A stretch of 64,000 nucleotides of DNA from the NCBI GenBank assembly GCA_038049695.1, contig CP142452.1, positions 53,216,501 to 53,280,500 of the forward strand, read 5' to 3'. Under the pieces are notes generated by a model. That model searched no databases. It saw nothing but the letters and a program-made list of their open reading frames with translations, and had not been told where the DNA came from. Source of the stretch: Cinnamomum chago (taxonomy: Eukaryota; Streptophyta; Magnoliopsida; Laurales; Lauraceae). Shown piece by piece: positions 9,711 through 57,289 of the stretch (position 1 is its first letter; each line of letters begins with the position of its first letter). A program made the translations under genes and the position numbers.

Positions 9711-9741
<31 letters not shown>

Positions 9742-9834
9742 GCAATTCTTAAACAAGTTCCATTTCTAAAATTAGCTGAGTTGAACACTGCCCAGGATGT
9801 CCATAAGATGGGCAAAATCTTCATACTTGGCTGA
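9400..9834. other. Non-coding DNA with a T22 run
   Basis: No gene recognised. A ~22-base T run at 9719-9740 may mark the poly(A) tail of a small minus-strand retroposon, but no body or target duplication was identified. Confidence 0.45.
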
Positions 9835-10250: not shown

Positions 10251-10271
10251 AGCAGTAGTTTGTGATGTCCG

Positions 10272-30839: not shown

Positions 30840-31650
30840 AAGCTGAGAGTTGTGCATATGTGTATGTGTAAGCATAAGCGTGTGGTTGCGTACCTTTTCT
30901 GGGATAGCTCCCTATATATATAGGGGCCAAGAGTTGACTTTTGGAGGTAGAGTCCTATCGGACCTTACCCCGGCGTCTTAGAAGTAAAGTCCCATCAAAC
31001 CTTACCCTGATGTCTTGTGAATCCCGCTCTATCAGGAATTATAGACGTAACCGCCGGGTCAGGATGACTTCTTATCTCTATCCGACGCGTGTCCTTATCT
31101 CTCAGCACGTTCTGTAACGTGGCTGAGTCTCCATAGAGGTACAGTTGTCAGTGCACGTCTAGGTGAACCATTCTGGCACTATTACCTTGATGGACGAGGC
31201 TGAGATGGATGAGGCCGAGATCAAGAAATGCCTAACTAGTACTCTTACCGAATCTAGGACAACCTTCTGGCACTATTGCTGAGATTGATGAGGTCGAGAT
31301 CAAGGCATGCCTAGCTGGTACTCGTACCGAAGTAGGATAACCTTCTGGCACTATTGCCGAGATGGATGAGGCCGAGATGGATGCACGCCTAGCTGGTACT
31401 CTTACCGAAGCTAGGACAACATTCTGGCACTATTGCCGAGATATATGAAGCCAAGATCAAGGCATGCCTAGCTGGTACTCTTACTGAAGTTAGGACAACC
31501 TTCTGGCACTATTGCCGAGATGGATGCACGCCTAGCTAGTACTCTTATCGAAGCTAGGACAACCGAGATGGATGAGGCCGAGATCAAGGCATGCCTAGCT
31601 GGTACTCTTACCGAAGCTAGGACAACATTCTGTACTATGAAAATATCCCC
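30840..31650 (-). repeat. Probable 5' LTR-like flank of the Tat element, with tandem repeats
   Basis: Lies upstream of the protease-side segment. A palindromic TATA region (CCCTATATATATAGGG, 30910-30925) is followed on the minus strand by a CA-rich leader-like stretch. Further out (about 31165-31630) are about five 75-95-bp tandem units with TTCTGGCACTATTGC, GCATGCCTAGCTGGTACTC and ACCGAAGCTAGGACAAC. The layout fits a U3 with tandem enhancer-like repeats, a TATA box and R/U5, but I could not match it to the other end of the element, so the LTR call is inference. Confidence 0.45.
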
Positions 31651-33480
31651 GCACAAATATTTTGACTAAACAAATATGCATTATGCAATCTTTTTGCTTT
31701 TTTATTATAATACTTTCCTTGTATATATAAATTTATTAATTTGGATTTATTATCATGAATGCATGTGAATAAATGAATATTTATATTTTATAAGTGTTTA
31801 ATCCATTTTTAAAATAATCTTCAAATTATTTTAAAAAAGGACATGACTCTCTCGAGTCACCGTGTTGACTCTATCTGAGTCAAGTTTTTTGCATTGTACG
31901 AGTCCGAATCCGAGTCCCGAGTTTTCCAACCTAGGTTCCAATGCTATGAAGTAAGAGAGGATGGAGTACATGAAAAATCAAAGGAAGAAGGTGATGAAGA
32001 AAGAAAAGGTAGTGTAGGAACAGAGAGGATTGATTCTGAGGTTTGGTCTATCTCGGCATGATGAAGAGGTGAAGATGGGGCAGATAAAACGTTGATATGG
32101 CTAGAAGGTTGGTTACGTGTGAGAGAAAGATATGAATAGGTCTAGTGTTAGATCTGACGATAGGAGAGTAGTGGTTAACCTCATATGGAAAGCTTACAGA
32201 GATCGAGTGGGTGTCAGTAGTGGTGGGCGAGATAATGGAGACAATAATAGAGATGGCTTTGTTTATGAAATGATGAGACGTAATAGTAATGAAGGGAGAA
32301 GCCGAGTGGACTGAATTGGGTTGAATGGCTATTGGCAAGTGGGTTCAGGTATGGATGAGGGAGAGTATGATTTACGAAAGCGGGATGTCACTGTGTAGCG
32401 TCTATGGTTATGAACTTATGATAGAAACAAAGGGGGCGTGTGTTAAAGTAACGGTGGGTTTAGGTCCTGGTTTGATCCCAAGTATAAAGAGAGATTGGTG
32501 GGCGGGCCACAGATGGTTGGGTCAAGCGGACAAAATGTGCTTGGGTTTGAATGTGGATCGACCGTTGGGTTGGCTGGTGGCTTATTTGGGAATGATGGCC
32601 TCGAGTGGGTAGTCACAGGTTTGGGGATTTAATTGGTAAGGGAGTTGAATCGAATGCTTTGCTCGTTAAGGAAGAGATGATAGTGTACTCGGTTTTGGTA
32701 GTATGTAAATGAGAAGATAAGATGGTGACGGATGATAACGGAAATTGAGAGAAGGGCTGGGTAAAAGTGGTGGGTCTCGGCTGCAAGGTGATGGAAAAGA
32801 TGGAAATAGTGACTCAGGCTGCGAGTTGCCATACGGTCTGAGAGATGGTCTGTTCAAGTGGGTATGGAGTGGGTACCGTTCTATTTGGGTGAGTTCTGAG
32901 AGGAGTGGGTCTTGTTTTGTAATGGTGAAGAGATTGAGAAAACAGAGATGAGCATTGGAAGGGGCTGAGTTAAGTTGGGTTTAGTTGCTTGGCTTTGTGA
33001 GTTTTGGGTTGGTCTGATGTGGCTGAACTGATTTGAGTAACTGAGTTGAATGGGTTCTTAGTGAGATTTGAGTATGATGGGGGTCAATTTAAATTGATTT
33101 GAGATAATGTTGTGGCCCTCATATGATGATGAGTGAGGATGGGTACTGACTATGTTGGCCTGAAACTAAAAGGGAAAATCTATAAAGGAACTGATTTAAC
33201 CTAAATTGTGTTGGTCTAATTAGCATGTTGGACTAGGTTCAATTGAGGGTGAGGGATAGGGCAGCATTGTGGCGGCTTGAGGGGCAAAACTTGAATAAAT
33301 TTTCATTTCACCAATTGTTATAACTATCATATTTTTAAGTTTTCTTTTGACATAGTTGTAAGTTCAAGCATGAAAAATATATTATGACTCAAGACTAAAT
33401 TTTACATAAAAATTAAAACCAGTATCTATTCAGCCTTAACAAAATATAAGCAAAGAAAGTTGTAAAATAATTATTTCTTA
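31651..33480. other. No gene recognised
   Basis: AT-rich at first, then (31930-33280) a G-rich plus strand with many GGTTTGGG / GAGTGGGT words and short unassigned open frames. It may belong to an unrecognised transposon, but no termini or coding similarity were found. Confidence 0.4.
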
Positions 33481-33499
33481 GTACATTTCAACTCAATCA

Positions 33500-35040
33500 T
33501 CTATCAAAACGGAACTCAACGTTCTTTCAAATCTTGAAAATCGTCTATGATTGATTCTGTGTTAAGTTTCTCAGTAATTTCTTTTTCAATGTACACAATC
33601 AAATAGTCAGAGAGAAAATCATCCTCCATTTTGCTGCGAAGCCTAGTTTTGACAATATACATGGCTGAAAATGATCGTTCAGTAGTTGCAGTAAAAACTG
33701 AAAGAGTAAGCACAAGTTCAATCACTCTAAAAACAAGTTGGTAGACTGTTGGTCTTCTAGTCTTTACCAACTATTGACACGGATCAGAAACAGTTGACAA
33801 TTTTTGAAAGTCTAAATGTCGAACTACATTATACTCTTAATGGTGAAGTTGCATTCTCAATTGCATTTTCTCATTTTTTGTGTAGTCTTGAGGATAAAAA
33901 TTCTCTACCAACTTGCAAATATCATCACCTCTAAAAGATTCATGTGCATTTCAAGGATCCAAAGCTGAGCTAAGAATAAGCAACTCTACTGCATGCTCAC
34001 TAAACCGACAATTTAATTCTTGTAATTGAGAATCAATTACAGCATAAAAATTTTCTATTCGATAATGATGCTCAATTGTAAACTCATCTTGTTGATCGCA
34101 GGCTCAACCTCGTCTCGCAACATAATGAGCATTCATATCTAGGACATCTGTATTGCGTGCCTCACAAAATGATTTCACCTTGGTAAGTAAAGCATCCCAC
34201 CCAATATCTCTCAATTTTTGGATAAGTGCTTTAGTAGATAAAACAAGATGCATGGCATTTAAAATGTCGTGAGATTGACATTGCAAAGCTTGACAAAGTA
34301 ATTCAGTGATCTCCATGATTTCTTTCATGAGATGCAAGATGAAGACATTTAAATGAAGTCATTGCCTCGTAAGTTGAGTCCACATCTCATCATTGAGAAA
34401 GAATAGTTCCGTCCTCAATGATGTTAATTAGAACTACACATGTTAGACTAAACATCTTTATCAAGTTAGAAACTGATTTCAAGTGAAAACTCCAACGAGT
34501 ATCTCTTACCCATTGTAAAGAATCAATATGATTAAGTCCTCTCCCATTCTTGAGCTCATCAATGGCAATCAAATGTGCAATTTCAGCAGCTTGAGCAACT
34601 TTTAACTCATCATTACGCTTGCATGAAGCTCCAATAATATTGACAATTGAAGTCAATTTAGTAAGAAATTGATAAATTGGAATAACTTCTTTTGATGCTG
34701 CAACTAATGTCAATTGAAAGCGAAGTGCCAAACAATGGACATAGTAAGCATATAGACAATCATTCAAAATCAAAGCTTGTAATCCATTCCACCCACCCCG
34801 CATATTGCTTGTACCATCGTATCCCAGCCCTCTAATATTCTGAATATATAAATTATGATAAGACAATACAACATATATCTCATTTTTTAAGGTCAATGCT
34901 ATAGTGTTGGAGACATGAACAAGCCCAAAAAAGAATGCTCTCGCACAAAACTATCTTTGTCGACGAATCTCAAAACTATAGCCATTTGCTCATTTGACTT
35001 ATCACGAGCTTTGTCAACAATTATACAAAATTTTGCATCA
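33500..35040 (-). mobile_element. hAT transposase remnant (ZMYM1-like / DUF4371 type)
   Basis: On the minus strand, from 35040 downwards: DAKFCIIVDKARDKSNEQMA (the DUF4371 RNase H-like start), IRGLGYDGTSNMRGGWNGLQ and YYVHCLALRFQL (34896-34390), a middle segment QALQCQSHDILNAM (34337-34104), and the C-terminal hAT dimerisation domain with TATTERSFSAMYIVKTRLR and DYLIVYIEKEI (33770-33516). The order matches the plant hAT family annotated as zinc-finger MYM-type protein 1-like. The zinc-finger N-terminus is absent, and the pieces lie in different frames with stops between them, so it cannot make transposase. No TIRs were identified. The right edge abuts a copia LTR at 35041. Confidence 0.85.
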
Positions 35041-36668
35041 CCAATTTCTTTATTTATCAATATAATAATGCTTTCCTTTCATGAGATGAATGGTGTTTTA
35101 TTGCTTACTTGCACATAACCAATACGAATGACATGATGGTTCATGAGATGAACTGGAATCCACAAGTATACTAGATGCAATACATGTGTATGGATGAGAT
35201 CAACATATGGGAGACATGTGTCGCAAATCTTATACTTAAATAGCTTCACAACCAGTACTGGGATTTGGCATCTCATCAGAAAATGTTGCAGCATTATGAT
35301 CACTATGAGATAGTGTGATTTATCTCAATCGTTAGAGTCTAAAACTCTGGGTCATCATGCTGGTACATTGGATGTATTGAAGGACCATGAGAACCACCTT
35401 ATGATACATTATCTTTACTTTAAGGTATGCTCTCATAATTCCCCAGCAATAGACTCATAATCTTAAGACATTAATGAACTCAAGTTTCTATCTATTCATT
35501 TGCTTTGAGTCGCCAATGAGTGAGGCCAATTGTAGGTCAACACATCGGTGTCTTGGGTACGTGGTAGTAGGACTGTGAGAATATTCAATTGTCAAGATGG
35601 AATCTATCCTCATTATCCCCTTGTGCCAATTAATGGATTTATCATTGGTAAGTGCTCACCCAACTCAATTAAGAGTTAATTGGATAAGTACCGATGATCA
35701 CTATGATTGATTGGATCTCAAAGATATTAAGATATGGATCTAATTTGGTGGACATGTCCAATTGATCCATGGATATAGATAGAGTGGCCTACTTGTGGTC
35801 ATAGGGAAGTTTATGGTCTTCTTGTAATTTATTACTGAGACTGGAATTAAATTGCATTTATATATAGTGGAGTTATTTGCAATTAACTTTAAGCCCGAAT
35901 TGCACATGAGATGTGGGGTCGGGGTGTCCCAGTTAGAGCCACTTTCTATGAAATCCCTAGTGGTCCCCACGTTAGCTCAAGTTATTAGATAGTTACTAAT
36001 TCTACTTAAACTCTAAAAGGAAAGGAAATAGAAAGTTACTAATCCTATTTGAAGCGAGACTTTCTAATTGTGATATAATAAGTTACTACTTGTTATGGAA
36101 GTGAGACTTCTATTTCAATTAGAAAGAGGAGGTGGCTTAAGTGTTATAAATAAGGAAAGAGAATCTTGGACGTCCCTATGCTAATTCCATCTCTTGGAAT
36201 TCACGCCCAAGGATAATTGTACAAGAGTTGCACACGCCCATCTCCATCGCCTCTCTTTTCTAGTTTCTCTTCCGGTTTCCTTAGATAGCTTCTAGTTGTT
36301 TTCTCTTGGATATCCCACCCTTCTCCTTGAGAATAAAGATCTGATATGGGTAATAGCGTGGATGGTGATTGGGCCTTGGAGATTTTGATTTGTTTTGTGA
36401 AAGAGTTCATCATCAAAGAAAGAGATTAACTTCTCCATTAGAGATCTACCAAGCTCCAAAGGTAAACGTCTACTTCCTTGTATGTTAGGTGGTTGCTTGT
36501 TAGGTGCTGTTTTTATCTTCTAAATAGAGTTTATTACTGTTCATGATTCATGAGTTTTGAGGACTTGGATTCTAGATTGGGTTTTGTTGCCTTATGGATA
36601 GTTGATCCTGCGTCAAGTGGGTCAAAAGTTTTTGAAACCTATCCACGAGGCCCACCTACTTCCAACAA
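35041..36668 (+). repeat. 5' LTR of copia copy 2 (partial)
   Basis: Aligns by eye with 4793-6526, starting at the shared phrase TTTCTTTATTTATCAATAT and ending CCAACA. Its left edge is the junction with the hAT remnant. Confidence 0.88.
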
Positions 36669-36670
36669 TT

Positions 36671-36678
36671 GGTATCAT
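36671..36678 (+). other. Primer-binding site (initiator tRNA-Met type)
   Basis: TGGTATCA two bases after the LTR end is the classic plant copia primer-binding start, complementary to the 3' end of initiator methionine tRNA. Confidence 0.85.
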
Positions 36679-39600
36679 AACCATACCTCATCTTTAATTA
36701 TGTTAGATCTGTAGGCTAGTTCTAATCTTTGCATGAGATGCGACGAGGATAGAGCTAGGGCTATATAAGGATCAGTTTTGTTGATTTTGCTTGCAACAGC
36801 GGTAGAATCATGTTTGGAATGTCACAAAAGGGTTTAAATATAATGGAAAGATGGTAGGAAGCCATTAGGAGGCTTCAAAAGAGATTTGGAATAGTTTGGA
36901 CACGAACATAGAAAACCCAAGTTAATGTCTTCGGCAATCTGGTCGATTTGCCTTTGTGCCCGGTCGACCAGGTTTATACAGGCCAGTAGACCGGGCCCTC
37001 TGGTAAGTCAACCGGGGACACTGACACAGAACTGTGAAGTTTCAAATTTTCAGATTCGGGGCTTATTTGGCATCCTGTTTTTCCAGCCTGGTTTTGTGAT
37101 TTGTATGGTTGTATGAGATACTAACTTGCATTGTTATCTTTGTCCTCTCTATGTGGCACACAAGTCTTTTACATTACTTTTATGGTTATTGGTTCATTTG
37201 AAGCTAAGTGTAAAGGGCATCATGATTTCCTTGGTTTCCCATGAAAGGGCAAAGCATGGTGAATTTCCCTATAGCCCTTTTATTTCCATTATCAGCTTAC
37301 TATGTAAGTCTCATCGTCGAGGCATAGGAATTTATGTAATTTTCTATTTTTGTAAATTTTGGCGATGTCTGAGACAAAGAAGGAAAGTGAAGTTGGACTC
37401 CTAATTAAAGAGTTTGAAGATTACCAAAAGAGTTATCGAGATGCCCAAAGAGTTTGATGAATCCCAAAGTTTGGGAAAGTCTAAGAAGTCTATTCCGCAT
37501 GGGCCATGTAGAGGAGATGACTAATTTCTATTTTTAGCACTTTTTATTTATGGATAAATGCTTTTATAGAATATTTCCAAATCTGATCCAAACATAGTAG
37601 TTTCCAAAATTGGTCGAATCAAATTAATTTTTGGAAAGAGTTCTAATTAGTGTTGGTGGGCCCATGAGAAGAACTCATCGGTAACACTAATCTTAGGTCT
37701 GGACTTTCTTTAAATATAACTTGACTTGGAACCAATCATTGGACATATCATGAGATGATTTAATGTTTATATATGTGGGTCTTAATACCTAAAAAAATCC
37801 TCAATTCTAAAATATTAAGTGGGAGCGGGGCAATTAAATTGAGAAATCCCCATGGTTTTCCACCATAGGTCCATTGTAAGGTAAATATTACCCTCGCACC
37901 ATCTTAAGAATGGTCGTTCCCCACGGAGAGCTTTTGTTTGTCTAGTTACTAGATATGAATCTCCTTAGGATAGTGTTGGTGAGACATGGTGGGGGCCCAC
38001 TCCCCAAGGAGGAGCTGCCCACAACGGTTGTCATGCAATGCTAGTTGATGGGTCACACTTAACTAAAATAGTGATGTAGTATCACTAAAGATTTACGTCA
38101 TGTATTTTTAGAACCCAAAGTTGATCGAAAGTCATACATTATTTACTATGAGATACCTAGATGATAATGAATAATGTGGATCATGGATAGTTAGTCTTAA
38201 TTCTAATTTTGACCAACTTTGATCCACACCAATTTAGGTGGTATCCGCACCCCTAAGGAGGCATACCACAAGGGATTGAGATTCCAATGTATTCTGAATT
38301 TAGTGGTTATGAGGATTCCCATATGAATTTGGTAGAATACTAAACCCTAATGTCATTTATATTCTTTAATTGAATGTATGGTTATTTGCGACAGTTTATT
38401 CAACATGAATTCAAATACTTCCAATCCACTTGCGACCATCCTCAACAAAAATAAGTTGGTCGGACCCAACTACGTAGATTAAAGAAGGAACCTAGATATT
38501 GTCATGACAGCTTCAGGATACAAATATGTCCTTACCATAACCCCCCCCCCCCCCCCTACTACAAGAATTTGCATTTTTGCTAGCGTTTTTTGCCGGCGAA
38601 ATAATTAAATGTCGGGAAAAGTGTAACTTTTTCCGGCGAAAAAGCTTATTTCGCCGGGAAAAGTTATACTTATTTCGCCGGTAAGGGTTCAGCTTTGCCC
38701 GGCGAACTCATTTTTTCACCGGCAAAGATTATGTTTTACTAGCAAAATATTTGTGTCACCCGCAAAGGATATATTTTTTGCCTGCAAAATACCTATATTA
38801 TTTGTGGGCTGGTGTTGGTTTGGGGACAAAGAAACAAGGGTTTGGGGTTGTGATTTGTGTTTGGCTACTGTGTATTGGATAGATGAGTTATGTGGTTGGT
38901 GTATCAGGGGCAGTGAGCTGTCAGCCAATATGTAATGGGTTTTATAACCATTCGGACAATGGTTTAGTGGATAAAGGTGGTCGACAGGTGGGGCTTGGAT
39001 TATCTGACATTCAGCTGATGCGTGGAGAGAGTTGATGATGATATAAGGGTTGGTTGTGGGGTGTGATGGGAAAGAGGGTTCAGCCACTTGGCTTCCTTGG
39101 ATAGAAACACTCAGTAGATGTGAATGAAGGTCTGGGACTAGTCGGCAGCTCAGATCTTTGATGTGGGGATTTCGGCCATGTAGTTTTGTGGTATGGGTGT
39201 GGTCCGGTCAATGAAAACAAGGCCTGATTTTGGGGAAACAAGGGTTGTACAACCAATGATATTTAGAGTGTAGGTGATGACTCGGTGATAAATTCAGTAT
39301 AGGAGCCATTCTAGAATTATTCTTAACTTCTTTCTGAATTACATATATCTATTTATTTGTTTTGTGAAAATTTTCAGATGGCGTAAATCAGTCGATCATC
39401 ATAAGGTACATTGAGCTTTTCATTTTCTCAGTTCCCTATGAAGTTCGGGTACTTCTTCATCTTTGCCAGTCTACATACAGTTTTATTTGTGGCTTCTCAT
39501 CTTTGTGCTTTAACCATTATGCTAAATCCCAATATTTTATAAATCCTTTTGTTACTTTGGTGGGAGTGTTGAGTTCGTCAGAGTGTAGTTAAATTTCTAA

Positions 39601-39959
39601 TATTAATATCATTTTGGCCAAGAATGATCGATGGCACAAAATTTTCTTTTCCTGTTAAACAAATTCAGGATCCACAACTAAATGCTTTGTATGAATATAT
39701 TAAGATTACCAGATCAGATGTATTTAGAACCAATATAGCCTTTTTACTTTCAGCTAAAGCTAAAGTGCAAATCAAGTATTTTCAACCAAGAATAACGAAG
39801 AGAACGTTTGTTTCAGTTCAATAAAGTTCAGGGATATTTGAGTAATTGATCCACAACTAGATAATCTGGTTAATGATAATCTGAACAGAAGTGGATATCA
39901 ACATTTAAGTACCATGTTTGTTAGAGTTTTTGTTTTGTTGCAATTTGATAGGATGCATT

Positions 39960-41526
39960 CACTTTCATAAGCTTGTCCTCTCATTCATACATGGTTTTAT
40001 TCATAGGATCATCATGCATATTTCAACTTCTTAAAACTTTATTTTTATCAATTGTAATGCATGGTTTTCATATTCAGGTTGACTCTTCAGTTCTTGGAGT
40101 CTTTGATTTCAAAAATCCTTCCAAGCTTTCCAAAGTTTCTAACTTTAAATTCATTATTGTGTTTTGGAGTTTTCACGGCTTTAAAATCTCAGTTTTCATC
40201 TTCTTTCAGTCATGATTTAATGCTTGGTAGATGTGTTTAAAAGTCCCTTGGAAGGTGCCCTCAAAAGTTACAAGTTTCTCTCAATTGTCAAAAATCTGGG
40301 TTGTTTCTGGCAGTGTCGTCGGTCGACCGAGACCTGCTTCTCGGTCGACCGGGAACACTGTCGGGCGAGTGGTCTGTTTCTGAGCTGAAACAAGCCAACG
40401 GTCAGAAATATGACCGTTGTGCTTTCTCGGTCGACCGAGACCTCTTTGCCGGTCGACCGAGAACTAGCCGTTGGCAACTTTAACTTTATAAAAAGTGGCT
40501 TTTTGGTTGAAGAAAGTTGCTGAGATTGGAGAGACCTTTGAGGCCAAGGCTAAGCAACTTCTCAAGAGCATTTTCAAAGGGATTATGAAGCCATTCCACT
40601 AATTGAACCTTTGATCTTCAAATGGGTGTGCTTCCTTTAATCCATAGTCTTTTTACAATCATGTTTTGGTTCAAATCTTTGATCTTTCTCAATGCATGAT
40701 TATCAAGTTGCTTTCATTTTAAAATGTTGTCTTTCATAACATGTCTAATAGCTTAGAAATCTCATATGCTATGAATACAACATGTTGTCATTGTTTCACA
40801 TGAAGTTGTTTTCTTGTTTCAATATAAACATGTTAGACTTGAATTTGTTTTCTTTGAAATCAAGTTAGTTTACCTTGTTAAATTCATGTGTTAGACAAAT
40901 CACTCTTTCTCAAACTTATGTTTATCATCTTTGAATCTTTTAAGATTGTATCTTTTCAAAAAGAGAAAGAGTAATTTCTAGAAAATGCATTTTACATAAA
41001 CTTTGTCATTCACATGCATGTTTCTAGAACTTAAGTTTTCACTTTCTAATTAGCCTGATTAGAGGCACTCAATTGCACCTCATTGTTCTCTTTATCCATG
41101 CATTCTTAGGCATATTTCTTAAGAGAAAAGTTCTTTGTTGTAAAGGTTCATGCTTAGCCTTGAAAAGCATATGTTGTAAAGGTTTATGCTAAGCCTTGAA
41201 AAGCATAGTGTGTTTGTAAGGTTTGAGGTGATCCTAAACCTTAATTGAAGTTAGTGAATACCGATAAGTGTATCGGGAGTGGATGTAGGCAAGTTGGCCG
41301 AACCACTATAAATGAGCTTGTCATGGTGATTGATCTTTTACTCTCTTTGCTTGAATGATTTACTTTTGGTTGTATGAAGTTTGTAGTTGATGATTCCTTG
41401 TGTATGCTTATCTTAGAGATTCATATCTATCACAAGATAATTAATCTTCATCAAACCTTAATTGACTTAAAAGTTAAAAGAATTCAAATTGGCCTAGGTT
41501 TTTAGAGCTCATTCTATTCACCACCC

Positions 41527-41560
<34 letters not shown>

Positions 41561-41590
41561 ACTCTAGGATTCGGTCTTGGACTTTCAATG
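39960..41590 (+). mobile_element. Probable solo LTR of a copia-type element inside the CACTA
   Basis: Contains four GGTCGACC palindromic sites (40318-40460), a TTTATAAAA promoter-like site near 40486, the phrase GATGTAGGCAAGTTGGCCGA followed by ACCACTATAAAT (41284-41311), and an end with CTCTAGGATTCGGTCTTGG after a long C-run. These features are common in long LTRs of plant SIRE-type copia elements (from memory). No internal region adjoins. Exact ends and target duplication could not be fixed. Confidence 0.45.
41528..41560. repeat. C33 homopolymer
   Basis: Thirty-three consecutive C's close to the end of the putative LTR. A second, 16-C run lies at 38541-38556 against the CACTA left end. True length may be affected by sequencing. 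Confidence 0.9.
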
Positions 41591-42038
41591 TTCACTTCAA
41601 CAAGGGAAAATTATCCTGTGACCTTTGGTTGGTGAGTTTAATTAGCTGAGAACTTATAAATTTCTTATAACATCTTTGTGCCCTGCATTGTATAAGATGA
41701 AGCTGTATGCATAAAGCATATTTTGTGTCATTATTATTGTCATTTTCATTGTTGTTGTTGTTATTATTATTATTATTATTTTATCCTTTCCTTTTTGGTA
41801 TTTGTATCGTTTTATATCTCAAATACTGAACGCACTGCACTTCTTTTGTATTTTAGCGACGTTTAAAATTTCAAATGGTCTTTCGTAATATTATATTATC
41901 TGATCTTGGGTCCATTGTAATGGAATTAATGTGGTACTTGTTTTAATTACAGAAGTGTCTGTAAAAGTGTCATGCCATCATAAACCTGTGTAATAGATAT
42001 ACTTTTTTGATGCTTTCAACTTGTTACTTGCATCACAG

Positions 42039-42804
42039 TGGTGAAAGTGGAGCTGGGAAAACCGAAACAGCAAAAATTGCCATGCAATACTTGGCAGCAC
42101 TTGGTGGTGGGAGTGGGATAGAGTATGAAGTGCTCCAAACAAATTCAATACTTAGTGCATTTGGAAATGCCAAAACCTTGTGAAATGACAATTCTAGCTG
42201 ATTTGTGAGTATTTCTCCTTTTTATGACTGAAATTTTTTTAAGGGATTCCATACATGAAGTTTAAGACATTTACTTCATTCAATTTAAAGCTTTGTGATC
42301 TGTGTTTTACTATCCTGCTTGCTTCTCCCATTTTCTATTTGAATATGTTTCCTCATTTTGATAAACCTAAGGATTTGCGGTTAGCTTGTATTTTCTTGGC
42401 GTGGCATAGGGGAAGCTGATAGAAATTCATTTTAGTACAACTGGGAAAATTTGTGGTGCTGAGATTCAAACATGTAAGCATACTTTGAGTGACTCATTTC
42501 TCATAATGTGTGACGTGAGATTTAATTAATCACTTTCTATTTAGGCAATTATTACTGACTCAGTTCCTGTCCTCTGCATCATGGACAACAAATTTCAATT
42601 CCTTTTTACATTATCAAAGTTTTGCTCGAGAAGGTAGTGTGACTTCTATCTTGGCTTATTCTTGGGTTTTTTTTTTTTTTTTTATCCGGGATTTGAAGAA
42701 TTCCATGTATGTTGTGAAGTCTAGAGTGGTTCAACGAGCCAAGGGAGAAAGATCTTATCATATCTTTTATCAACTTTGTGCTGGAGCTCCTCCTTCTCTT
42801 AGAG
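42039..42804 (+). pseudogene. Captured fragment of plant myosin VIII (ATM1-type) motor domain
   Basis: Four consecutive exons with introns retained: 42039-~42205 ([10 protein letters not shown]-loop, [20 protein letters not shown]), 42410-42473 (GKLIEIHFSTTGKICGAEIQ), a 14-nt exon 42620-42633 (FLLEK) and 42720-42804 (SRVVQRAKGERSYHIFYQLC, AGAPPSLR). The [11 protein letters not shown] insert is typical of myosin VIII, an actin motor at plasma membrane and plasmodesmata. The conserved switch-I stretch RNDNSSRFG has TGA in place of both Arg codons (CGA to TGA). Only about 100 codons of a ~1150-residue protein are present, with no start, tail or IQ motifs, so it is non-functional. Retained introns show capture at the DNA level by the surrounding CACTA. 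Confidence 0.9.
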
Positions 42805-42879
42805 GTTGTATGCTGTTTTTATTACTTGTCTAAGCTATATCTTCCTATTTGCTTCATTATATTTAATACTTTTTTCAGA

Positions 42880-44580
42880 GGTTCATTACATTTTGATACT
42901 CTTTACATCTTTTTTTTTTTTTTGGCCCTCCCAATAGCATGGGCCAGCACATGAGATGGAGAACATGGCATAGGACTAGACCTAAGGCCTGGTCAGTTCA
43001 ATCGTGTTCCCCATTGGCCCATCAAAGGCCACACATCAAACCCTATTGGCTTGAACGACCACCTCTTGGGGCCATTGCACCGTTTTTCTTTATAGATTCA
43101 CTGAGTGAAAAAGGTTATAGTAGTAACTTCCCCTTTATTTTATGTTTCTACTGTTGAGTTTATAACATCATTAATGGTTTTATGCTAGTTCAATGATTTA
43201 TATCTCTTATATAATTTTAATTCCCCCTAACTCATAAATACAATGGCATATTGAACATCCCCAATTCTTGGACAATTTTTTGCTTTATTTTTTCAATTTG
43301 CACAAAACCCTTTGCTAGGGTTTTGTTTGATTTTGGTTCAATATATGGTATAGAAAGGAGTTTTCAGATTTTCTTTGGTTGTACCTGTTGTAAGTTGTAA
43401 CCCCTGTTTTCCCTTTGTAATTGTATGCCATTGGGGATTGGTTTAAGGTAGGTTTGTTCTTCAAGGGGGCTGATCTTTAGAGATTTATCATATATTCTTC
43501 GTCTATTTCCTTCTTGTTGGTGTCATCCTACATTAGCTGGTCTCCCCCTTATCCTAGTTCCTAGAACTCCGAACTTTTTAATTCATCATATAGTGGTTTT
43601 TTTCCTTGGCTTTTCTATACACATCCAGACCATCCCTTGAGGTTTTTTTCCATTTTCCTTGATTTGAAGCTACCCTTAGGTTTGCTCTATGTACTCTGTC
43701 CTGGTTCTATCATTTCTCATAAATTCATGCATCCATCTCAGCACGTGCATCTCAGTCACATCTATTTGATCTTCTACTTGTTTCTTCTTTGTTCAACATT
43801 CAGTTCCATATGAAAAGTGGGTCATAGAGCCTCTTTAGTCGTAAAGGCACTTGATAATTGTGTAATACTCTACTATCTCATCTCCACTTTACCACACCTT
43901 GCATCGATCCTGTTTGCCACATCTAAGTCAAACCCACATTACTACGCTACAATTGTTCTTAGATACTGAAATGTACCACACTATGGTGCTAAGACATTTA
44001 GAATTTTGACCAACACATATTCCCTACTCTCAAAACCACTTATATTGAACTCTACTATATTACTTTGATCTAATATTTTCCATCCATTTGGCTCGAGATA
44101 CTTTTCTCCAATGTTCTAGCTCATAATTTTCTTGCTTTCTCTCTGACTGATGAGTGCCAGATCATTGTAGGCAACATAGACTGCAGGACTTCATCTTGGA
44201 TATTGGTTGTAAAGATCCAAAATCGAGGCTAATTTATAAATAAGGACTCAACATAGACCCTTGGTTCAATCCTAGTCTAATTGAAAACTTATTCATCACC
44301 CTACATAGTTCCTAAGCTCATTACTGGCCCTTCATATATGTTTTGTATATTAGAATATACCCATTAGTGTAATCTTTTTTCTTTAGTGTTTTCCAAACTA
44401 ATTAATATGTATCTCTTAAAGTTGTATAAAGAAATGTAAATTTCATAAATTTTACAAATGGATTTAAAGAAGAATTAGTAAAATGACTGAAGCCAAAATC
44501 TGCAACAATTTAAAGGCATCTGAGGTCCTTCCAGACAAGTTCAACAACCCATATGCACAAAGAGAGAACAGGGGCAGCCA
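42880..44580. other. Interior of the CACTA element, no gene recognised
   Basis: A GGGCC-type dispersed repeat lies near 42920-43080. The rest is T-rich DNA without recognisable coding similarity. Further decayed captured sequence is possible. Confidence 0.4.
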
Positions 44581-44830
44581 CATTTGGGGGATGTTTGTGT
44601 GGGTAGTTTCTACTATTTGTGGGGTTTTGCTAGAACTGATGCCACAACACAACTAACCTTTTTTATATTTCATATTTCCAAGTACCCTTCATACATTTCT
44701 TTATCTTCCTTTCTCTTATTGCCTTTTGGATCCTTCAATTTGGATTTCTTTTTTCACTCTGGCTTTTGGGTTACTTCCGCAGAGATATATAGTGGTATTC
44801 GAAATTGGGTTTAGATTTCGTGGGAGTTTG

Positions 44831-44998
44831 TAACTCTGTTTTGTGCGAATGGGGAATTCGCAACAGTAGGGGATATGTACGGTTTGCTTGAATTTTCAGT
44901 TTCTACAAGCGGTGACTCTGTTTTGCGCGAATGGGGAATTCGCAACAGTAGGGGATATGTAGGGTTTACTTGAATTTTCAGCTTCTACAAGTGGGAGC
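44831..44998. repeat. ~83-bp tandem duplication upstream of the MFSD12-like fragment
   Basis: The unit with CTCTGTTTTGCGCGAATGGG, AATTCGCAACAGTAGGGGAT and TTTCTACAAG occurs twice head to tail with few differences, 480-650 bp before the captured ATG. It is probably in the captured promoter or 5' UTR region. Confidence 0.9.
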
Positions 44999-45481
44999 TG
45001 TGGTTTGCTTGAATTATCTTCTATCTGTAATAAAAAATTGTTTAATGAATAATCAAGTGGCTGATCTTCTGATTATAACAATTGAGTTGAAAATTGAATT
45101 GAATTGCAAATTATTTAAATCCTTTTACCCATTTGACAAATGCTGTATTGAAAGGACCATCAACAGTTCTTTGAAAAGGATATGATGTAGCATAAATTAT
45201 CTATCGATCTATCCTTTGTGGAATCTACTGCAGAGTAATTCAAGCAGGTTTTCTTGAGTAGTTCACAGAAGACAATAAAAAGTGACTTAACTAGGTAAAT
45301 TTTCTTTTAGACTTGCATAAGATAATTAAATAGTGATTTTGTAAAGGTACTGTTTATTAGAAGTTGTTGTCTTGCTAAAGTTCCCGTGCATGTATATATT
45401 TTTTTTTCCTACAGAAGCTTCCAAACTTGAGGGCATCCCGGACTCCCATCTTCTGTTTTCTACTTTTAGAACATATTCTCT

Positions 45482-46331
45482 ATGATTGTTGACATGGAAG
45501 ATGAATTATCAGCTAATGAGCCATGTGCTAAGCCCCTCCAAAGGAGTTACGTATTTTACTATGGTGTGGGCCACATGCTCAATGACGTCACATCTGCTTG
45601 TTGGTTTACTTATCTGTTATTATTCTTGACAGAGATTGGATTGACTCCAAGGTATATCTTTCATAAACATGCAAATGTTATGGTATTAGTGTACTTCTGC
45701 TGGCCTTCTTGTGCTTCTTGTGCTTTTTTTTTTTCTATTTTATTTATTTATTTATTTAATCTAATGGTTACTGAAGGTGGCCAATCTCAGCTTATATGCT
45801 ATTGCCTTAGCTGTGTTCAATTTATTTAGTGCAAGAACACCTTCCGATATTGAAAATCAGGTATGTTCAGTTAAAGGTGTTTCTTTATTTGTCAATAGAA
45901 TAAATTTTCAGGTATGACATTAACATCTATATTTTACTCTTTCATTCATGTACATTAAACAGGATTTGTGGATAGCATGTTTGTCAATTTTTCTTGGGTG
46001 CTGCTTTGTGGTCATATTTCTTGCTGGATTCAAATAGCCAAGGTATGGTAGGGATTCTTAATGTGTTTTTTTAAGTTGCTTTATTTCTGTCCATCGGAAG
46101 CTTGAGATAATTATTCTGTTCACTTGTAACTGATCTTGTGACCATGCTGCTTGATTAAAGAATTCAAGTTATGTTTCATTCTTTATCGATTTACCATAAT
46201 GTAGATTGCAGCAACAGAGTGAGCATAAATACCGCCAAAGGATTTCTTGGACCCATTGGTTTAAAAAGACTTTGTATTATCAAGTTGCTCTTGTTTATAT
46301 GCTCATGAGGCTGGTGACAAATGTTTCACAG
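45482..46331 (+). pseudogene. Captured fragment of an MFSD12-like major facilitator gene
   Basis: Exon-like blocks with plausible splice sites: 45482-45651 (MIVDMEDELS...YVFYYGVGHMLNDVTSACWF, LLLFLTEIGLTPR), 45777-45860 (VANLSLYAIALAVFNLFSAR, TPSDIENQ), 45963-46042 (WIACLSIFLGCCFVVIFLAG) and 46205-46331 (WTHWFKKTLYYQVALVYMLM, RLVTNVSQ). These match the N-terminus and a middle part of plant MFSD12-like transporters. A long central stretch (roughly 150-200 residues) between the first two blocks is missing. The third block has an in-frame TAG where relatives have KEPR. No C-terminal half is present. Probable 5' UTR and promoter sequence precedes it. It is intron-containing, so captured as DNA and not retroposed. 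Confidence 0.88.
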
Positions 46332-47099
46332 GTCAGTGTTCTTCCTTTCAATAACTAAAAAGTATGTTGCAATTATCTCATTGTCATTATCATCTAGGCC
46401 TTATCCATCCATTTGGAATCGCTTGAATAGTTAATTGCAAAAAACATGTCATCTTATAGAGTGGTTGCCTCTGTATTTTGTTAGCTCTTTTCATAACTAT
46501 TTAAGGACGCATGGAACTTTAGTACTTGAAGAGTCATGCTTTATTCTATAGTTTCACTAAAAGTTGTGCATATGACATTCTCAATCATATGTTAATCTTG
46601 CTTTTTTTTTATGCAGATTGAATGAAAATTGAAAAAAAAATTTGTTGAAAGAGTTCATGCAGCTAGGATGTAGCCAACATGAAGGCCAAGTATGCAGAGT
46701 AACAAATTGCTATATGTTAAAATGAGATGCATGAAGTTTTTTAAAACAATGGTGCAGGTGTTGGAATGGTGCAACAATGAAATTATTATATATGAATATT
46801 TAAATTTTCATTGGCATTTGAATGTTGGTACAGAGTAGAATGTTAGCATTTGTTTTAATTTTGTAATGGTAATGGTAAAGTGTTTTCAATGTTGCAAGGA
46901 TGCTTGAATATTAATATGAAGTGAAATGAGTTTTCTTGCTTCATTTTATGATGATTTTGGAATGGAAATGGATGTAGGGTGTGTAGTAGATGTGGTCTTG
47001 GATAATGGAATTAGAAATTTCAATTTATTCATGTGACAAACAGGAAAAGAAATTTAAAAAGTCAAATAAATAAATAAAAATATATTTAAAAAATAATTA

Positions 47100-47623
47100 T
47101 TCCCGACTAGAAAAGACGCTGGCAAAAAGATTTTGAAAAAATAATTTTCATAAATTGTAAATCTTTTCCCGGCGCAAAAAACGCCGGCGGAAGTTTTTCT
47201 AAATTTATTTTAGAAAAAATAAATCACTTTTCCCGGCAAAAATTAACACCGACGAAAGTCTTTCTAAATTTATTTTTGAAAAAATAAACCACTTTTCCCG
47301 GCGCAAAATAACGCCGGCAAAAGTTTTTCTAACATTTATTTTTGAAAAAATAAAAAAAATTTCCAGCGCAAAATAACGCCGGGAAAAGTTTTTCTAAACA
47401 TTTATCTTTGAAAAATCAAACTCTTTTCCCGGCGAAATAAAACGCCGGCAATGTATGGACTTTTACCGGTGCTGCCTTTTTTTCGCCGGCAAATGCTATT
47501 ACTGGCAAGCTTTTCCCGGCGCATTGCGGCGCAAGAAAAATCACCGGTAATAGACATTGTCAGCGTTAATGGACCTTTACCGGCGCTTTTTTAGCGCTGG
47601 TAAAAGTGTAAATTGTTGTAGTG
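47100..47623. repeat. Right subterminal repeat region of the first CACTA
   Basis: Repeated TTTTCCCGGCGCAAAA-AACGCCGG-(A/C)AAAGTTTTTCTAAA modules (at least six) with self-complementary CCGGCG/CGCCGG cores, ending at the terminal TTGTTGTAGTG. Such arrays are transposase-binding regions in CACTA elements. Confidence 0.85.
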
Positions 47624-49199
47624 CCTTGAGGAGCCTGGGCCAAATGCACCACAGGACGAGAATGACCCTTACGCCAAATGGACCAAAGACGATGAGATGA
47701 CAAGATGTTATATTCAGGCATCCATGTCTAGTATTTTGCAACACCAACATCAATCCTATAAAACTACATACGATATTATATCGAACTTAAAGAAGATGTT
47801 TACGGACCAAGGCAGACTACTATGAGGGTGCTTATAAGCACTAAAATGGCTAAGGGAACACCAGTACAAGACCACATGCTGAAGATGATAAACTCATCGA
47901 ATGAGTTAAATGTACCGGGTGATGCGATATATGCAGAATCACAGATTGACATAATCCTCGAGTCGCTGCCGGATTTATTCAACCATTTTAAGATCAATTA
48001 TAATATAAATAAAATGGATCTGACTCTAGCTGAGCTGTCTAGCCAACTAGTAGCGACTGAGGGGATCATGAAGAAAAACCAACCACCCTGATGACAGAAA
48101 AGTCATTTGCCAGGTCCAAGTCGGAAGGCAAAGGCCGGAAAGGGAAGAAGAAATCAGTCCCTAAGGGTCCTAAGGTGGAGAATGGTGCTACTGGTGGTGT
48201 GACCAAGGCTAAGGGTTCGGGAGCAAAAGGAAAGTGTTTCCATTGTGGTATGACATGACAATGGAAGAGGAATTGTCCAGATTTTTTGTCTAAGAAAAAG
48301 ACCTCAAGTATGATTGAGTCAATTGTTTCTGAAGTTAGTTTTATAACTAGTACTTCATAATCATGGTGTGTTGACTCCGGTACAACTAATCACATCTGTA
48401 ATTCGTTGCAGGGGTTCCGGGAAATCAGGAAGCTTAGTGACAGCGAAAATATTGTCAACCTAAGATCTGATGCCAAGGCATAGGCGGTTTCAGTGGGAGT
48501 TGTTACTTTACTATTATCAAATAATAAGTTGATTTTGTTAGATACATTATTTGTACCGTCTTTGAGGCGGTATTTAATTTCAGTTTCTAGTCTGGTGAAT
48601 AAAAGTTATTGTATTTCTTTTGGTACTGAAGTTATCATAAAGACGAACGGTACTTTTATATGTTCTGGCAAGGTAATCAATGGCCTTTATTTGTTAACTC
48701 CCATAATGTATGAGATACATGACGGCGAAATAATTAATAGGCATCATTAAAGAGGAAGTCACCTTCATCTAATCCAATAAAACTTTGGCACCTAAGGCTA
48801 AGTCACATAAACCTAAACAAGATTGATAGGCTAGTGAAAGACGGTATCTTGCCTTCATTGGTGGTAGAACCAATGCCTGTTTGTAATTAAAAATGATTGA
48901 AAGACCATTTTCATGCAAGGGCAATAGGGTCAAAGATTTATTGGAATTAGTGCATACTGATGTGTGGACCCATAAATGTCCGAGCGAGAGGAGGATATGA
49001 GTACTTCTTCACTTTCACAGATGATTACTCAAGATATGAATACATATACCTTATGCACCGCAAGTCCTAAACTTTTGAAAAGTTCAAAGAGTTTAGAGCG
49101 AAAGGGGAAAAGCAATTAGGTAAAAGTAGCAAGACTCTTCTTGATCAAAGTAAGGAGGGGAATATCTCTCTGTTGAATTTATGGCACTACAACAAACTG

Positions 49200-50030
49200 C
49201 ACTTTTAGCGATGCCTTTCTAAATTCGTCGGTAAAGAGTACTTTTTACCGACGTATATAATTCCTTCGATAAAGATAGGACTTTTCCCGACGTTTTTAAT
49301 AAAACGTCGGTAAAAGTCCTATCTTTACCGACGTTTTTTTGGAAAACGTCGGTAAAAGTTTAATTTTATCATTAGTTTATTTTTCAGGGAAAATAAAAAT
49401 CACAGACTTTTACTGACGAAATATAAATGTCGGTAATATTTTATTTATTTTTATTTTTCCTTTTACTAACGAAAAAAACGTCGGTAATAATATTTTTATA
49501 ATTTTATTATTTTTATTAATCCTTTCGCCGACGAAAAAAAATGTCGGTAAAAGTATTACATTTATTTATTTATTTTTCTTTTATCGATGAAAAAAAAACA
49601 TCGGTAACTGTATTTTTATATTTTTTATTTTATTTCTTATTTTGTCGATAAAAAAAACATCAATAAAAGTATTTTTATAAAAAAAAATTGCGACGAAAAA
49701 AAACGTCGTTAAAAGTATTATATTTATTATTTTTTTTACCGATAAAAAAAACATCGGTAAAAGTTTTTTATATTTTATATTTTATTTTACCGACGAAAAA
49801 AAATGTCGGTGAAAGTACTTTTATATTTTATATTTATTTTTCTTTCTTCTTTTGCCGACGAAACAAAACGTCGGTAAAAGTGTTTTTTAATGTTTTTATA
49901 TTTTATTTTTTTTGGCCGACGAAAAAAAAAGTCGGTAAAAGTATTTTATGTTTTTTATTTTTATTTCTACTTTTGCCGACGAAAAAAACGCCGGTAAAAT
50001 TATTTTTTGTTTTTTCGAAAAATGCCATAT
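49200..50030. repeat. Left subterminal repeat array of the second CACTA
   Basis: About ten 60-75-bp units of the form CCGACGAAAAAAACGTCGGTAA plus a T-rich spacer; each has a palindromic CCGACG/CGTCGG pair. The open frame across 49688-50047 is only a translation of these units. Confidence 0.9.
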
Positions 50031-50399
50031 TTGTTTTTTCAATATAATTTTCCTGTAAACCTGTTTATACACCTGTATAAAAAAATAAACCTGTTCGTGT
50101 ACCTATATTTAATATAAAAAAGCAAGCAAACAAAATTTGCTAAATAAACAAACAACCATCACCATTTTTCATCAAATCATTCATCTCATTAAACAAATAT
50201 TATATTCAATAATGATACAGTCACATATAAATGTCCAATATACATATATAAATAAACTAAAGAAATAAAATAGCCCCAGAAATCTGCAACCAACCCCAAA
50301 GCATCCATCAATCTGCAATGACAAAAACAACATTAAAATCTTTTCAATGAATTAAATTATAAATGAAAGATAAACATGTATATATAAATCTTTTCTTAA

Positions 50400-51445
50400 G
50401 TTTTTCGGCGGCCTGTTTTCCAACCTAAGTATTGAGAATCAGGCGGTTTTTTCTTTTAATTCGTTAACCTGAAGTCCGATTCACTAACCGTCAATTCCTA
50501 CAAGGTACTTTGGCCTTGAACAAGGTACCCGTGTTAGTTTTCAATTTTTCATGGGGCCATTTCCCGTTCCGGACCCCCGGAGGGCCGTTTTCGAGCCTAA
50601 GTGTTGGAAAATCCGATGTTCTCGCTTCTAGTTCTCTAACAGAGAGTCCTATTTGCGAATCGTCAGTTCCTAAAAGTTATTCTACCCTTGAGCATTCGAT
50701 TTTTCCGGGGGTTGTTACCCGTTCCGGACCCCCGGCGAGCCGTTTTCGAGCCTAGGTGTTGAAAAATCTGATGTTTTTGCTTCTAAATCTCTAACCCAGA
50801 TTCCTATTTGCGATCCGTCAGTTCCTACAAGTTACTCTAGCCTCGAATGAAGTGCTCGTGCTGGTTTTCAATTTTTCCAGGGGCCGTCTCTAATTCCGAA
50901 CACCCGGCGGGCCGTTTTCGAGCCTAGGTGTGGGAAAATCTGATATTTCCGCTTCTAATTCTCTAACCGGGAGTCCTATTTTCGAACAGTCAATTCCTAC
51001 AAGTTACTCTACCCTTGAGTGAAGTGCTCGTGCCGGTTTCCAATTTTTTCGGGGGCCGTTTCCTGTTCCGGACCCCTGGAGGGCCGTTTTCGAGCCTAAG
51101 TGTTGGAAAATCCGATGTTTTCGCTTCTAAATCTCTAACCAGGAGTCCTATTTGCGAACCGTCAGTTCCTAAATGTTACTCTGCCCTTGAGCGAAGTGCT
51201 CGTGCCGGTTTCCATTTTTTCCAGGGGCTGTTTCCAGTTACGGACCCCCGGCGGGCCGTTTTTTGAGCCTAAGTGTTCGAAAATCTGATGTTTTCGCTTC
51301 TAAATCTCTAACCGGGAGTCCAATTTGCGAACCGTCAGTTCCTACAAGTTATTATAGCCTCGAGTGATGTACTCGTGCCGATTTCTGATTTTTTCGGGGG
51401 CCGTTTCCCGTTCCGGACCCCCGGTGAGCCGTTTTCGAGCCTAAG
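50400..51445. repeat. ~171-bp tandem array, first block (about 6 units)
   Basis: GGACCCCCGG-type anchor positions recur about every 160-173 bp (near 50571, 50731, 50897, 51070, 51242, 51415). Shared words: CGAGCCTAAGTGTTGGAAAA, CTCTAACCGGGAGTCC, GTCAGTTCCTACAAGTTAC, GAGCGAAGTGCTCGTG. Confidence 0.95.
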
Positions 51446-54400
51446 TGTAAGACCCCGACCCGAGTGAACCCGATTAGTGTTAATTAAGTTGTGTGTTAGC
51501 CTTAAGCATGATTAGAAGTCTTTGACTAAGTTAGGTTTGGAATAGCTTTTGATATAGTTTTGGAGAATTTTGATTGCTTTGTGATAGTGGGGCCCTTTGG
51601 GGGTTCCTATTTATGACCTTGCATGCGCTTGAGGATTTATATGAGATTTTTGCATTCATTGTTTTAATCCCATTTTATTTGTATTGTTAACCCCTACAAC
51701 TTTCATGTTGATCCCGTCCCCGTTCGAGATCCCAAAATCCGATTCCCTAGCCTTGAGGGCAAAATAGTCATTGCACACTAAATCAGTAACCAAAACTTGA
51801 TATTCCCAAAACCCGCGAAACATATACTTTTTGGAAACTAAATATTTCGGCTATCATTTCTTCCTTCTTCGTCAAATTCATTCGAGATCTCGAAAGACAT
51901 GATTTCAGCCCAAAGAGTGTCTTAAGTGGTGTGACCCATTCCCATTTGCTTATATAAGGAGAACCCATCTTCCTCATTTCCCTTTTCCAGCACAAAAGGC
52001 AGCCTAGGGTTTCTTGCAACCTTTCTCTTCTTCTTCTTGCTCTCTCCATCTCAATCTCCTACTAATCTTGGACCAACATCAAAATGGAGGTCATCATTCT
52101 CTTCCTCATCACCATAACTCTCTTTTGATACCATTTGTGAAGAAAACCTCTCATTCCAAGACCTTCTTTGAGCTCACCTTGCCCATTTGGAGAACCTACA
52201 AGTAAGCAACCTTCCCCATCTCTTAGATTTGTGCTACTTTGATCTTGAAGAGGTCTCATTTTCATTATTGTAAGGTTTCCCTTTCTATTTCATTGTTTGA
52301 CCATTTTAGGGTTTGTTTTTGGGGATTTTGTTCATAGCTTGGATCTTTGGCTTGGAAGAGTATTAGAGCTTGATTTCCTTGATTAGAAGACCCAAGGCAA
52401 GTGGATGATTTGGTTTTCATAAGCTTTCAATGATTTTAGTATTTTCCACTCATGCCTATTTATTGCATTGGTTTGAAATAAATGTCCATGATAGAGCTTT
52501 GATAGTGCATTTATGTCTTATAAGTGTATTGGTGAATGTCATTTAATTTCTTCTTGTTTGTACCAAATGTACTCTATTGTGAAATAGTTTCTTTCTTTCT
52601 TTCTTTCTTGGTATTGAATGGGATGTTGATGGAGGAGGTAATGGTATGAACACCTATTGGAGTTTTGGAGAAGTGTAGATAGATGCATTGGAGGAGCTCT
52701 TAGCTCGGTTTTATTGCAGGGATTTAATGGAAGTGAGGAGAGTGGTGTTGAGGAGGAAAAAGGGGCTCAAATCTGAACACAGTGGGTGTTTCCCACACCT
52801 GGCGGTCAGCAATCGGCTAACCGCCGAACCCATCGGCGGCTAACCGCCTGCCAACCTATCCATTTCGGTTACTTCTCCAGAGAGCAACATTTTCCACCTG
52901 AGAAGCACGGTCAGCCTCACGGTCAACAAGCGGCTAACCGCCAAACCCATCGGCTGCTAACCGCAAGCCAACCGAACCACTTCGGTTACATTTCCAGTAA
53001 CCTGTCTTTCTGTCAGGCTAACCGCCATCGACCGCTAGGTAACAAAAATTACCCAGACAATCATTCCAGAGTGCTCCTCGCTCGAGCGATGAACTTTGTT
53101 GGTCAAAGGAGATTCGCTAGGCAATGTATGAGGCCATTCGAGAAAGAAACCATATCACGAAGATGTCATTCGAAGTTTTGAAAATTCAAAGTGTATTAAG
53201 AGCCCGGAATGTCCCCAAACTCAAAGAGTACCAAATTATTATTAGTTCGACATACGGGATCCCTATTCACTTCAAATAAATCTTGAACCCGATACTTTAC
53301 CCGAGATTTCAATAGTTTATTGTACTTTATCGATCCCGAGATTTATACTACATGTCTTGTTTTCCCGAAAGCATATGAAACGACAGTGTGCCCTTGAGCA
53401 CCCCCGTCCTGCCCGTTTATTTACTTGTATTTGATTTACTTGCATATGTCTTGATTTGTTATTTGACCTATGAGTCGGCACCACTAAACTTGGATAACCC
53501 TGTTGATCTGATCCACCGACTTAGAAATCCCCTTCTTGTCCTGCCAGCTGCAGTTTGGATCTTGCTACCCGGTTATTACCGTGGTCTTGTCCCGATGCCG
53601 CAGATTGCTACTGTGGTCCTCGATGCCCGGCTCGCTACCGTAGTCATGTATAGTATATGTATATGCATTTATAAGATCCATTGTTTCTCCTCACCTCGAG
53701 TGACTGAGATCAGTGCCTAGTTATTGCTCTGTCACTTTAGTGATAAAGGACTTAGCTTCGTGTGGCTGTCATCTTGCTTGTTTCTCGTTTCCTTGGTTAC
53801 ATTTACATGTTTTATAAAGCATACTTGTATTTGAATAAATGTTTTATCTCATTTATATAAATTGTTATTTAAACAGGTTTAAATGCTTTTGAAAGTACAT
53901 TCATTTATTATCATATTGTCTTTGTATTTTACCCATTTGCCAAACCGTCGTGTTTTACCCACTCTTTGGTACTCAGGTCCCATTGTTGGTTATCCCGAGG
54001 AGGAGCATGAGGAGGCGGTCGGAGAACCGCAGCAGTTAGTTAAGTGGCGTGCTGATGATATCATTTAGACATTGGATTGCTTGAGAGAGAGAACATTTTG
54101 GGAAAACTTTTAACCATTCTTTTGGGGATTGGTATTTTGTTTATATTGGCCTTTGTTGGCCTTTATTTTTGGGAATGTAATTAAATGATCCTTGTATAAA
54201 CTCTAACTTACTTTTGGTTAACATGCTAATGATCATTGCTCATTTCGATACAGTATTATACTCGTGTTATTATTTTTATGGCTAAGAGATAGATTGAATA
54301 TTTGATTTGCTACACGCTTCCGCACTTAATAGAAATGTTCTTATATGGTTGTGATATCCTCACCGCGGACACATGTGGGAAATTAAATACATATATGGCA

Positions 54401-57245: not shown

Positions 57246-57289
57246 AGTAAAGTTCCCACTTATTTTTTCCCCTCTCCCGCCTCAAAAAG

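Follow-up and report, generated by a model that had tools for sequence, protein, structure and literature searches.

We analysed a 64,000-nucleotide stretch of Cinnamomum chago DNA (GenBank assembly GCA_038049695.1, contig CP142452.1, positions 53,216,501 to 53,280,500; hereafter the window, whose coordinates are used throughout, features lying on the plus strand unless stated otherwise) and found that positions 38557–47623 hold a 9.07-kb non-autonomous CACTA transposon of the Pack-CACTA kind, sited within a Copia retrotransposon and carrying pieces of a myosin VIII gene and of an MFSD12-like transporter gene. The element starts with TACTACAAGAATTTGC and ends with the inverse of CACTACAACAATTTACAC; its 3' end is an exact CACTA and its 5' end reads TACTA, the first base being T for C or the C having been lost. 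An earlier interpretation made from the letters alone (the sequence-only reading) had described inverted termini, a 3-bp flank duplication and subterminal repeats around an element with no recognisable transposase. The termini are real, since the two ends pair at 23 of 30 bases, a value that was never matched in 20,000 random pairings of 30-base pieces of the window (maximum 18), and a degenerate end pattern, for which 0.05 matches would be expected in a scan of the window, found both ends together with a third terminus at 49186. Subterminal repeats are likewise present, including a 65-bp tandem array at 47163–47451. The flank duplication, however, is not clean: read from 38557 the left flank is CCC and the right flank CCT, and a CCT on each side requires that the element begin at 38558 and have lost its first C.

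Domain search of all six frames of the element returned no transposase family, in agreement with the sequence-only reading; the possibility of a transposase in another frame was thus rejected and the element is classed as non-autonomous. Transposase-less CACTA elements move when an autonomous relative supplies the enzyme. A minus-strand open frame at 39207–38719 runs for 163 codons, a length reached in 2 of 100 first-order resamples of the element, and most of it has no Pfam match; an open frame of 135 within 38801–39918 was reached in 4 of 300 resamples of that stretch. Viral contigs queried with the element ends, a long terminal repeat (LTR) motif and the two spliced peptides gave no match. 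The element therefore has CACTA terminal inverted repeats and subterminal arrays and lacks a transposase of its own, and it agrees with Pack-CACTA elements in holding host gene fragments without a transposase, in having donors elsewhere in the genome and in belonging to a multi-copy family with common ends. Its 5' terminus and subterminal region occupy 38557–38800, as judged from end pairing, pattern match and search of the source genome (1.06 Gb in 14 contigs), in which the query 38557–38760 had at least 73 matches with 40 of 469 candidates scored. The family's own 3' region, with the 65-bp subterminal tandem repeats and the 3' terminus, occupies 46456–47623: a relative, L002, carries the sequence from 46456 onward without the transporter piece, six listed matches to a transporter query begin at 46456, and a query with the 3' region gave at least 52 matches with 40 of 875 candidates scored.

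The insertion is firm, and the stronger evidence for it comes not from the flank duplication but from an empty site inside the window itself. Alignment by blastn shows that an uninterrupted Copia copy at the left end of the window (copy 1) matches the left flank of the element at 1–1178 (37408–38546 in copy 2) and the right flank, where copy 2 resumes, at 1184–2573 (47631–48998), so that the ends of the blastn blocks place the paralogous counterpart of the target at 1179–1183. Copy 1 encodes gag and integrase-region domains. The LTR of copy 2 probably spans about 35043–36667, and a weak primer-site match lies at 36670 (one of four with at most two mismatches). Had the myosin and transporter exons continued outside 38557–47623, they would have belonged to ordinary genes extending beyond the element; this was looked for and rejected, because both flanks are Copia sequence and hold no gene exons.

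The myosin VIII segment extends from intron to intron over 39290–44404. Its five exons lie at 39378–39405 (DGVNQSIII; phase fitting the next exon, and also found in the donor locus L019), 42039–42204 (with the P-loop GESGAGKT and two in-frame TGA codons where the donors have Arg), 42410–42473, 42620–42633 (a mini-exon, FLLEK) and 42720–42804 (SRVVQRAKGERSYHIFYQLCAGAPPSLR). All ten exon bounds are AG or GT and the exons join in phase. The joined exons, with X at the two stops, match Pfam Myosin_head at E 1.3e-51 and solved myosin motors to E 1e-37, both X lying opposite Arg in the alignment shown. These results bear out the intron-containing myosin VIII fragment of the sequence-only reading, and retroposed copies were rejected since the introns are kept.

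A genome query with 41593–42900 gave at least 45 matches with 40 of 114 candidates scored, and 20 stretches of 9,991 bases were fetched and compared with the element alongside four shorter loci (L numbers below). Parental genes, for which the sequence-only reading had suggested a search of the same genome, were found for both pieces. The myosin donor is a tandem duplicate on C5, L019 and L020 (11.21M and 11.32M), whose copies lie about 102 kb apart, are 98% alike over 9.1 kb and are collinear with 39290–44404 except for a 1669-bp insertion in the element. L019 encodes the myosin VIII N-terminal SH3 domain PF25369 and more motor sequence, and when peptides of L032, another myosin VIII locus, were used in a tblastn search, L019 exons were located before and after the captured part; the assignment to class VIII was therefore tested. 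With gaps left out, the captured segment differs from L019 at 7 of 357 exon positions and 96 of 3070 non-coding positions, an identity of about 97%.

The 1669-bp insertion is a solo LTR in a myosin intron (39919–41587), bounded by ATGTT at 39914–39918 and 41588–41592. Because the element contains 229 TG..CA pairs with matching 5-mers, this duplication alone proves little; the insertion was settled by the empty sites in the donors L019 and L020 and in the relatives L030 and L031, all of which have no LTR and a single ATGTT. The bounds are exact, the duplication is of 5 bp and there is no internal region. A genome query with the LTR had 5048 candidates, of which 40 were scored; all 40 main matches begin at its first base, and at least 10 same-strand pairs lie within 15 kb of each other, seven of them at 6.9–7.0 kb, as full retrotransposons would show.

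The transporter piece (44651–46458) was delimited by its match to the donor L039 on C2, against which it shows two large internal losses. Positions 206–513 (two overlapping matches), 1622–2354 and 3670–4406 of L039 match 44651–45018, 45012–45698 and 45725–46458, respectively. Open exon-like peptides of L039 with no counterpart in the element lie between its last two blocks, and others after them; the element thus is without the donor's middle transporter exons. Four coding blocks lie at 45497–45651 (its left limit chosen, with no splice site), 45777–45860, 45963–46042 (in which a TAG stands in frame at a codon that encodes Glu in the donor, L029 and L042) and 46205–46331. AG stands at three left bounds and GT at all four right bounds, the first of these GT lying one base past 45650. 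An 82-bp sequence that is single in L039 is tandemly duplicated at 44830–44993. Over the two larger blocks, with gaps left out, 12 of 445 positions in exons and 43 of 975 outside them differ, an identity of about 96%. Of the changes from donor to element, C-to-T and G-to-A make up 29 of 103 in the myosin segment and 15 of 55 in the transporter blocks, counts on which we base no claim of methylation decay. The donor locus shows that the piece comes from a gene, as the sequence-only reading had held. Its name is another matter: MFSD12-like is a putative assignment from motifs, Pfam returned for the transporter blocks only MFS_1 at E 0.0085, under the cut-off, and no solved structure matched the piece (best E 1.2). 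Both gene pieces lie on the plus strand, in the same orientation, as had been proposed.

The capture edges thus fall at 39290 and 44404 for myosin and at about 44651 and 46458 for the transporter, and two internal stretches match neither donor. One of them, 38804–39289, is present as a whole in L031 and has at least 25 genome matches; its first 185 bases (38804–38988) match four short collinear pieces, of 55, 19, 39 and 75 bp, of a C4 locus, L043 (C4:89474300-89477300), joined with overlaps of 2 and 6 bp and then a 5-bp gap. L043 may be the source of this patchwork or a relative of it. The other is a 246-bp junction stretch between the captured genes (44405–44650): it adjoins the myosin edge in L023, L024, L029 and L041 and partly in L027, and it has at least 41 genome matches. 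A 47-bp piece of it, 44583–44629, also recurs alone at 91–96% in many genome places. Short overlaps are found at further joins, 7 bp at the transporter-internal join (45012–45018) and 6 bp at a join of 44175 to 45432 in L042. Among the contents of the element, the sequence-only reading had missed the exon at 39378–39405, the solo LTR and both non-donor stretches.

Related copies are numerous. Leaving aside the window and both donor copies, at least 12 of the 45 listed myosin matches show an identity of 94% or higher across at least 300 bases, and those that were read are partial. L029 on C8 covers 42389–47105, carries both gene pieces and terminates, as read in L040, in a 3' end of the window element's type; L041 has a window-type 3' end beside 42782–45208. 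The transporter query gave at least 47 matches with 40 of 360 candidates scored, and 11 of them start exactly at 45432. One of these, L042, joins 44175 to 45432 and keeps the window-type 3' terminus; this deletion derivative was read once, and the other ten copies probably have the same join. Sibling copies of the termini, for which the sequence-only reading had suggested a search, thus exist, joined to the same fragments in L029/L040 and L042, and the two termini are paired in another copy, a 724-bp element (L003, the same place as L038) that has both ends of the window family and little else. As side observations, L028 and L029 (C8:4.53M and 4.60M) are direct and inverted copies about 70 kb apart, a local cluster, and four transporter-fragment copies on one strand at C2:70587756, 70627783, 70667827 and 70707871, spaced by 40,027, 40,044 and 40,044 bp, suggest that a segment of about 40 kb has been amplified in tandem.

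A second CACTA family also carries some of this cargo. At C2:76.95M, L024 (with L044) holds, at oriented positions 399–10277, a 9,879-bp element with other ends, CACTACAAGAAAAATCATTTTTCGCG, flanked by ATT on both sides, which carries 41873–44680 including the myosin piece and the junction. The segments in L022–L026 start at 41873 or 41874. The L024 element also encodes, on the single strand that was scanned, a triose-phosphate-transporter-type domain (TPT, E 6e-10) and DUF1749 (E 2.5e-7). Among the loci read, both genes are represented by longer parts in the window family than in the second, which suggests that the cargo passed from the window family to the second.

Comparison of the myosin pieces dates the loss of the frame relative to these events. 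Of the 14 sequences aligned, the window and L022, L023, L024, L025 and L026 have both TGA codons, Arg stands at both positions in L019, L020, L021 and L032, and L027, L028, L029 and L041 do not cover them. Since both stops are common to the window and L022–L026 and are not found in the donors, the frame was lost before the composite spread and before its cargo was shared between families. In a tree of 13 rows (L026 was left out as short) the window is grouped with L022–L025, L027 and L041 at 87/91.

Taken together, the paired ends, the empty site, the donors, the capture edges, the solo LTR, the common stops, the relatives and the second family lead us to conclude, with very high confidence, that a Pack-CACTA element moved by cut-and-paste into a Copia retrotransposon after the ancestral capture, at the DNA level, of myosin VIII and MFSD12-like gene pieces. 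In the course of events that we envisage, an ancestor of the window copy took up both gene segments side by side and in the same orientation as DNA, the kept introns arguing against an RNA intermediate. The myosin frame would have been lost early; afterwards the composite would have multiplied in the genome, lost sequence through deletions between short stretches of identical bases and, in part, entered the second CACTA family; transposase made elsewhere would have moved the element in trans. Later, in the window copy, a retrotransposon would have entered the myosin intron and been reduced to the solo LTR. Template switching during interrupted gap repair may have produced the capture, a route favoured by the patchwork and the short overlaps, or the pieces may have been joined by fusion of neighbouring insertions, a capture model that follows work on Arabidopsis (PMC8903248). 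A suitable neighbour for the fusion model is present, since 1.56 kb away the same Copia contains an end of a second CACTA element.

Several points weigh against this reconstruction. The 3-bp duplication is imperfect in the window copy unless a terminal base was lost, and the 724-bp element, flanked by ACT and CTC, has no clean duplication either. Both genes and both ends were not seen together in any relative, the stretches read of L029 and L042 stopping short of their 5' ends. Only 2 of the 10 inner branches of the tree are well supported; either of the two captures may have been first; and the myosin source may be L019, L020 or their ancestor. L021 (C10:23.22M), an unplaced copy with Arg retained at both positions, may represent another, independent capture; it holds the myosin piece 41699–43011 at 96% and has other sequence in common with L030 and L031. 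The transporter owes its putative name to motifs, with Pfam support only below threshold, and the source of the transposase is presumed.

Of the other explanations, the one with most in its favour is that the element serves mainly as a source of small RNAs acting on the two parent genes. The identity to the donors (about 97% for myosin and 96% for the transporter) and the many genomic copies are consistent with it, but both segments are in sense orientation, so that small RNAs against the parents would depend on an antisense promoter or on the entire element being silenced, and we regard the explanation as unlikely. Far less probable still is that the gene pieces form a working chimeric gene on a transposon, transcribed into one spliced RNA and translated. 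They do lie on one strand and keep their splice bounds, and chimeric RNAs are known for soybean Tgm-Express1 (PMC1947982); against this, the myosin part has two TGA codons, shared with L022–L026, the transporter part has a TAG where the donor, L029 and L042 have Glu, and the middle transporter exons are missing. With three in-frame stops, a chimeric transcript of the kind that the sequence-only reading allowed for is unlikely to yield a chimeric protein, and the composite presumably has no protein function.

That retroposition, a Helitron or a Mutator element brought in the fragments, the CACTA ends being coincidental, is the least credible explanation. The stretch 38804–38988 does look spliced at first sight, yet no GT..AG bounds were seen at the patchwork joins, introns are present, paired CACTA ends bound the window element, and the 9,879-bp element with its clean duplication holds part of the same cargo. 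A last alternative concerns the second family, for which a myosin capture of its own from that donor might be supposed. Donor and family share one genome, and plant CACTA elements have captured genes repeatedly, but L023 and L024 agree with the window in the join at 44404/44405, in the 246 bp that follow it and in both stops, which makes independent capture very improbable.

Beyond this locus, we think it likely that gene fragments circulate between CACTA families: a dead composite, consisting of the myosin VIII piece, a non-donor stretch and a transporter edge, is carried by two families with different ends. If so, capture would often work as a relay: a transposon family would draw on cargo already carried by another family and not on a host gene. 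How plant transposons gain, lose and multiply gene pieces has mostly been inferred from end products. Here much of the capture history is readable, because both donor genes and many related copies are present elsewhere in the same genome; with donors, edges, an early frame loss, a deletion derivative and second-family cargo in one genome, capture models can be tested on real joins, and interrupted gap repair can be compared with fusion of neighbours. For annotators there is also a warning, since close myosin VIII pieces occur at no fewer than 12 places apart from the window and the donors.

The remainder of the window contains further mobile and host sequences. The second CACTA element has its 5' terminus at 49185–49206, identified by pattern match. 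Its sequence, followed to about 57250, contains ACGTCGGTAAAAG-type subterminal repeats and a 172-bp tandem repeat in two arrays (50406–51448 and 54484–56183); six frames of 49185–57400 gave no Pfam match, and neither its far end nor the remainder of its Copia host to the right was found within the window. An exact CACTACAAGAAAAATTAC terminus of another CACTA type lies at 10448 on the minus strand, which also carries a lipid transfer protein open frame at 21231–21719 (LTP_2, E 6e-15) and a hAT transposase remnant at 31500–37400 (Dimer_Tnp_hAT, E 1.2e-4).

The sequence-only reading had called the gene pair unusual. As a kind it is not: Tgm-Express1 of soybean holds pieces of five unrelated genes (PMC1947982), and Pack-CACTAs of maize often combine several loci (PMC8903248). 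In the open-access literature no paper was found that joins CACTA, myosin and gene capture, and the titles and abstract openings searched do not name a passage of cargo between CACTA families. The nearest counterparts are the Pack-CACTA and Pack-TYPE elements of Arabidopsis, maize and rice (PMC8903248), which like the window element have CACTA ends, no transposase and host gene pieces from multiple loci; unlike them, as they appear in that source, the 9.07-kb window element comes with donors, capture edges, a deletion derivative and second-family cargo in one genome. Tgm-Express1 is similar in being a CACTA element with intron-containing pieces of unrelated genes, but it lies in a gene intron and its pieces are spliced into the RNA of that gene (PMC1947982), whereas the window element lies in a retrotransposon and is known from DNA. 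CACTA elements of Chenopodium also contain captured gene pieces, placed upstream of the element's coding sequence, whereas no transposase was found in the window element; they also have satellite arrays inside, for which the second CACTA element at 49185 may be compared (PMC8978399). Thus, the element belongs to a known kind and is a well-resolved example of a known process, and the same dead cargo in two CACTA families is its least expected part.

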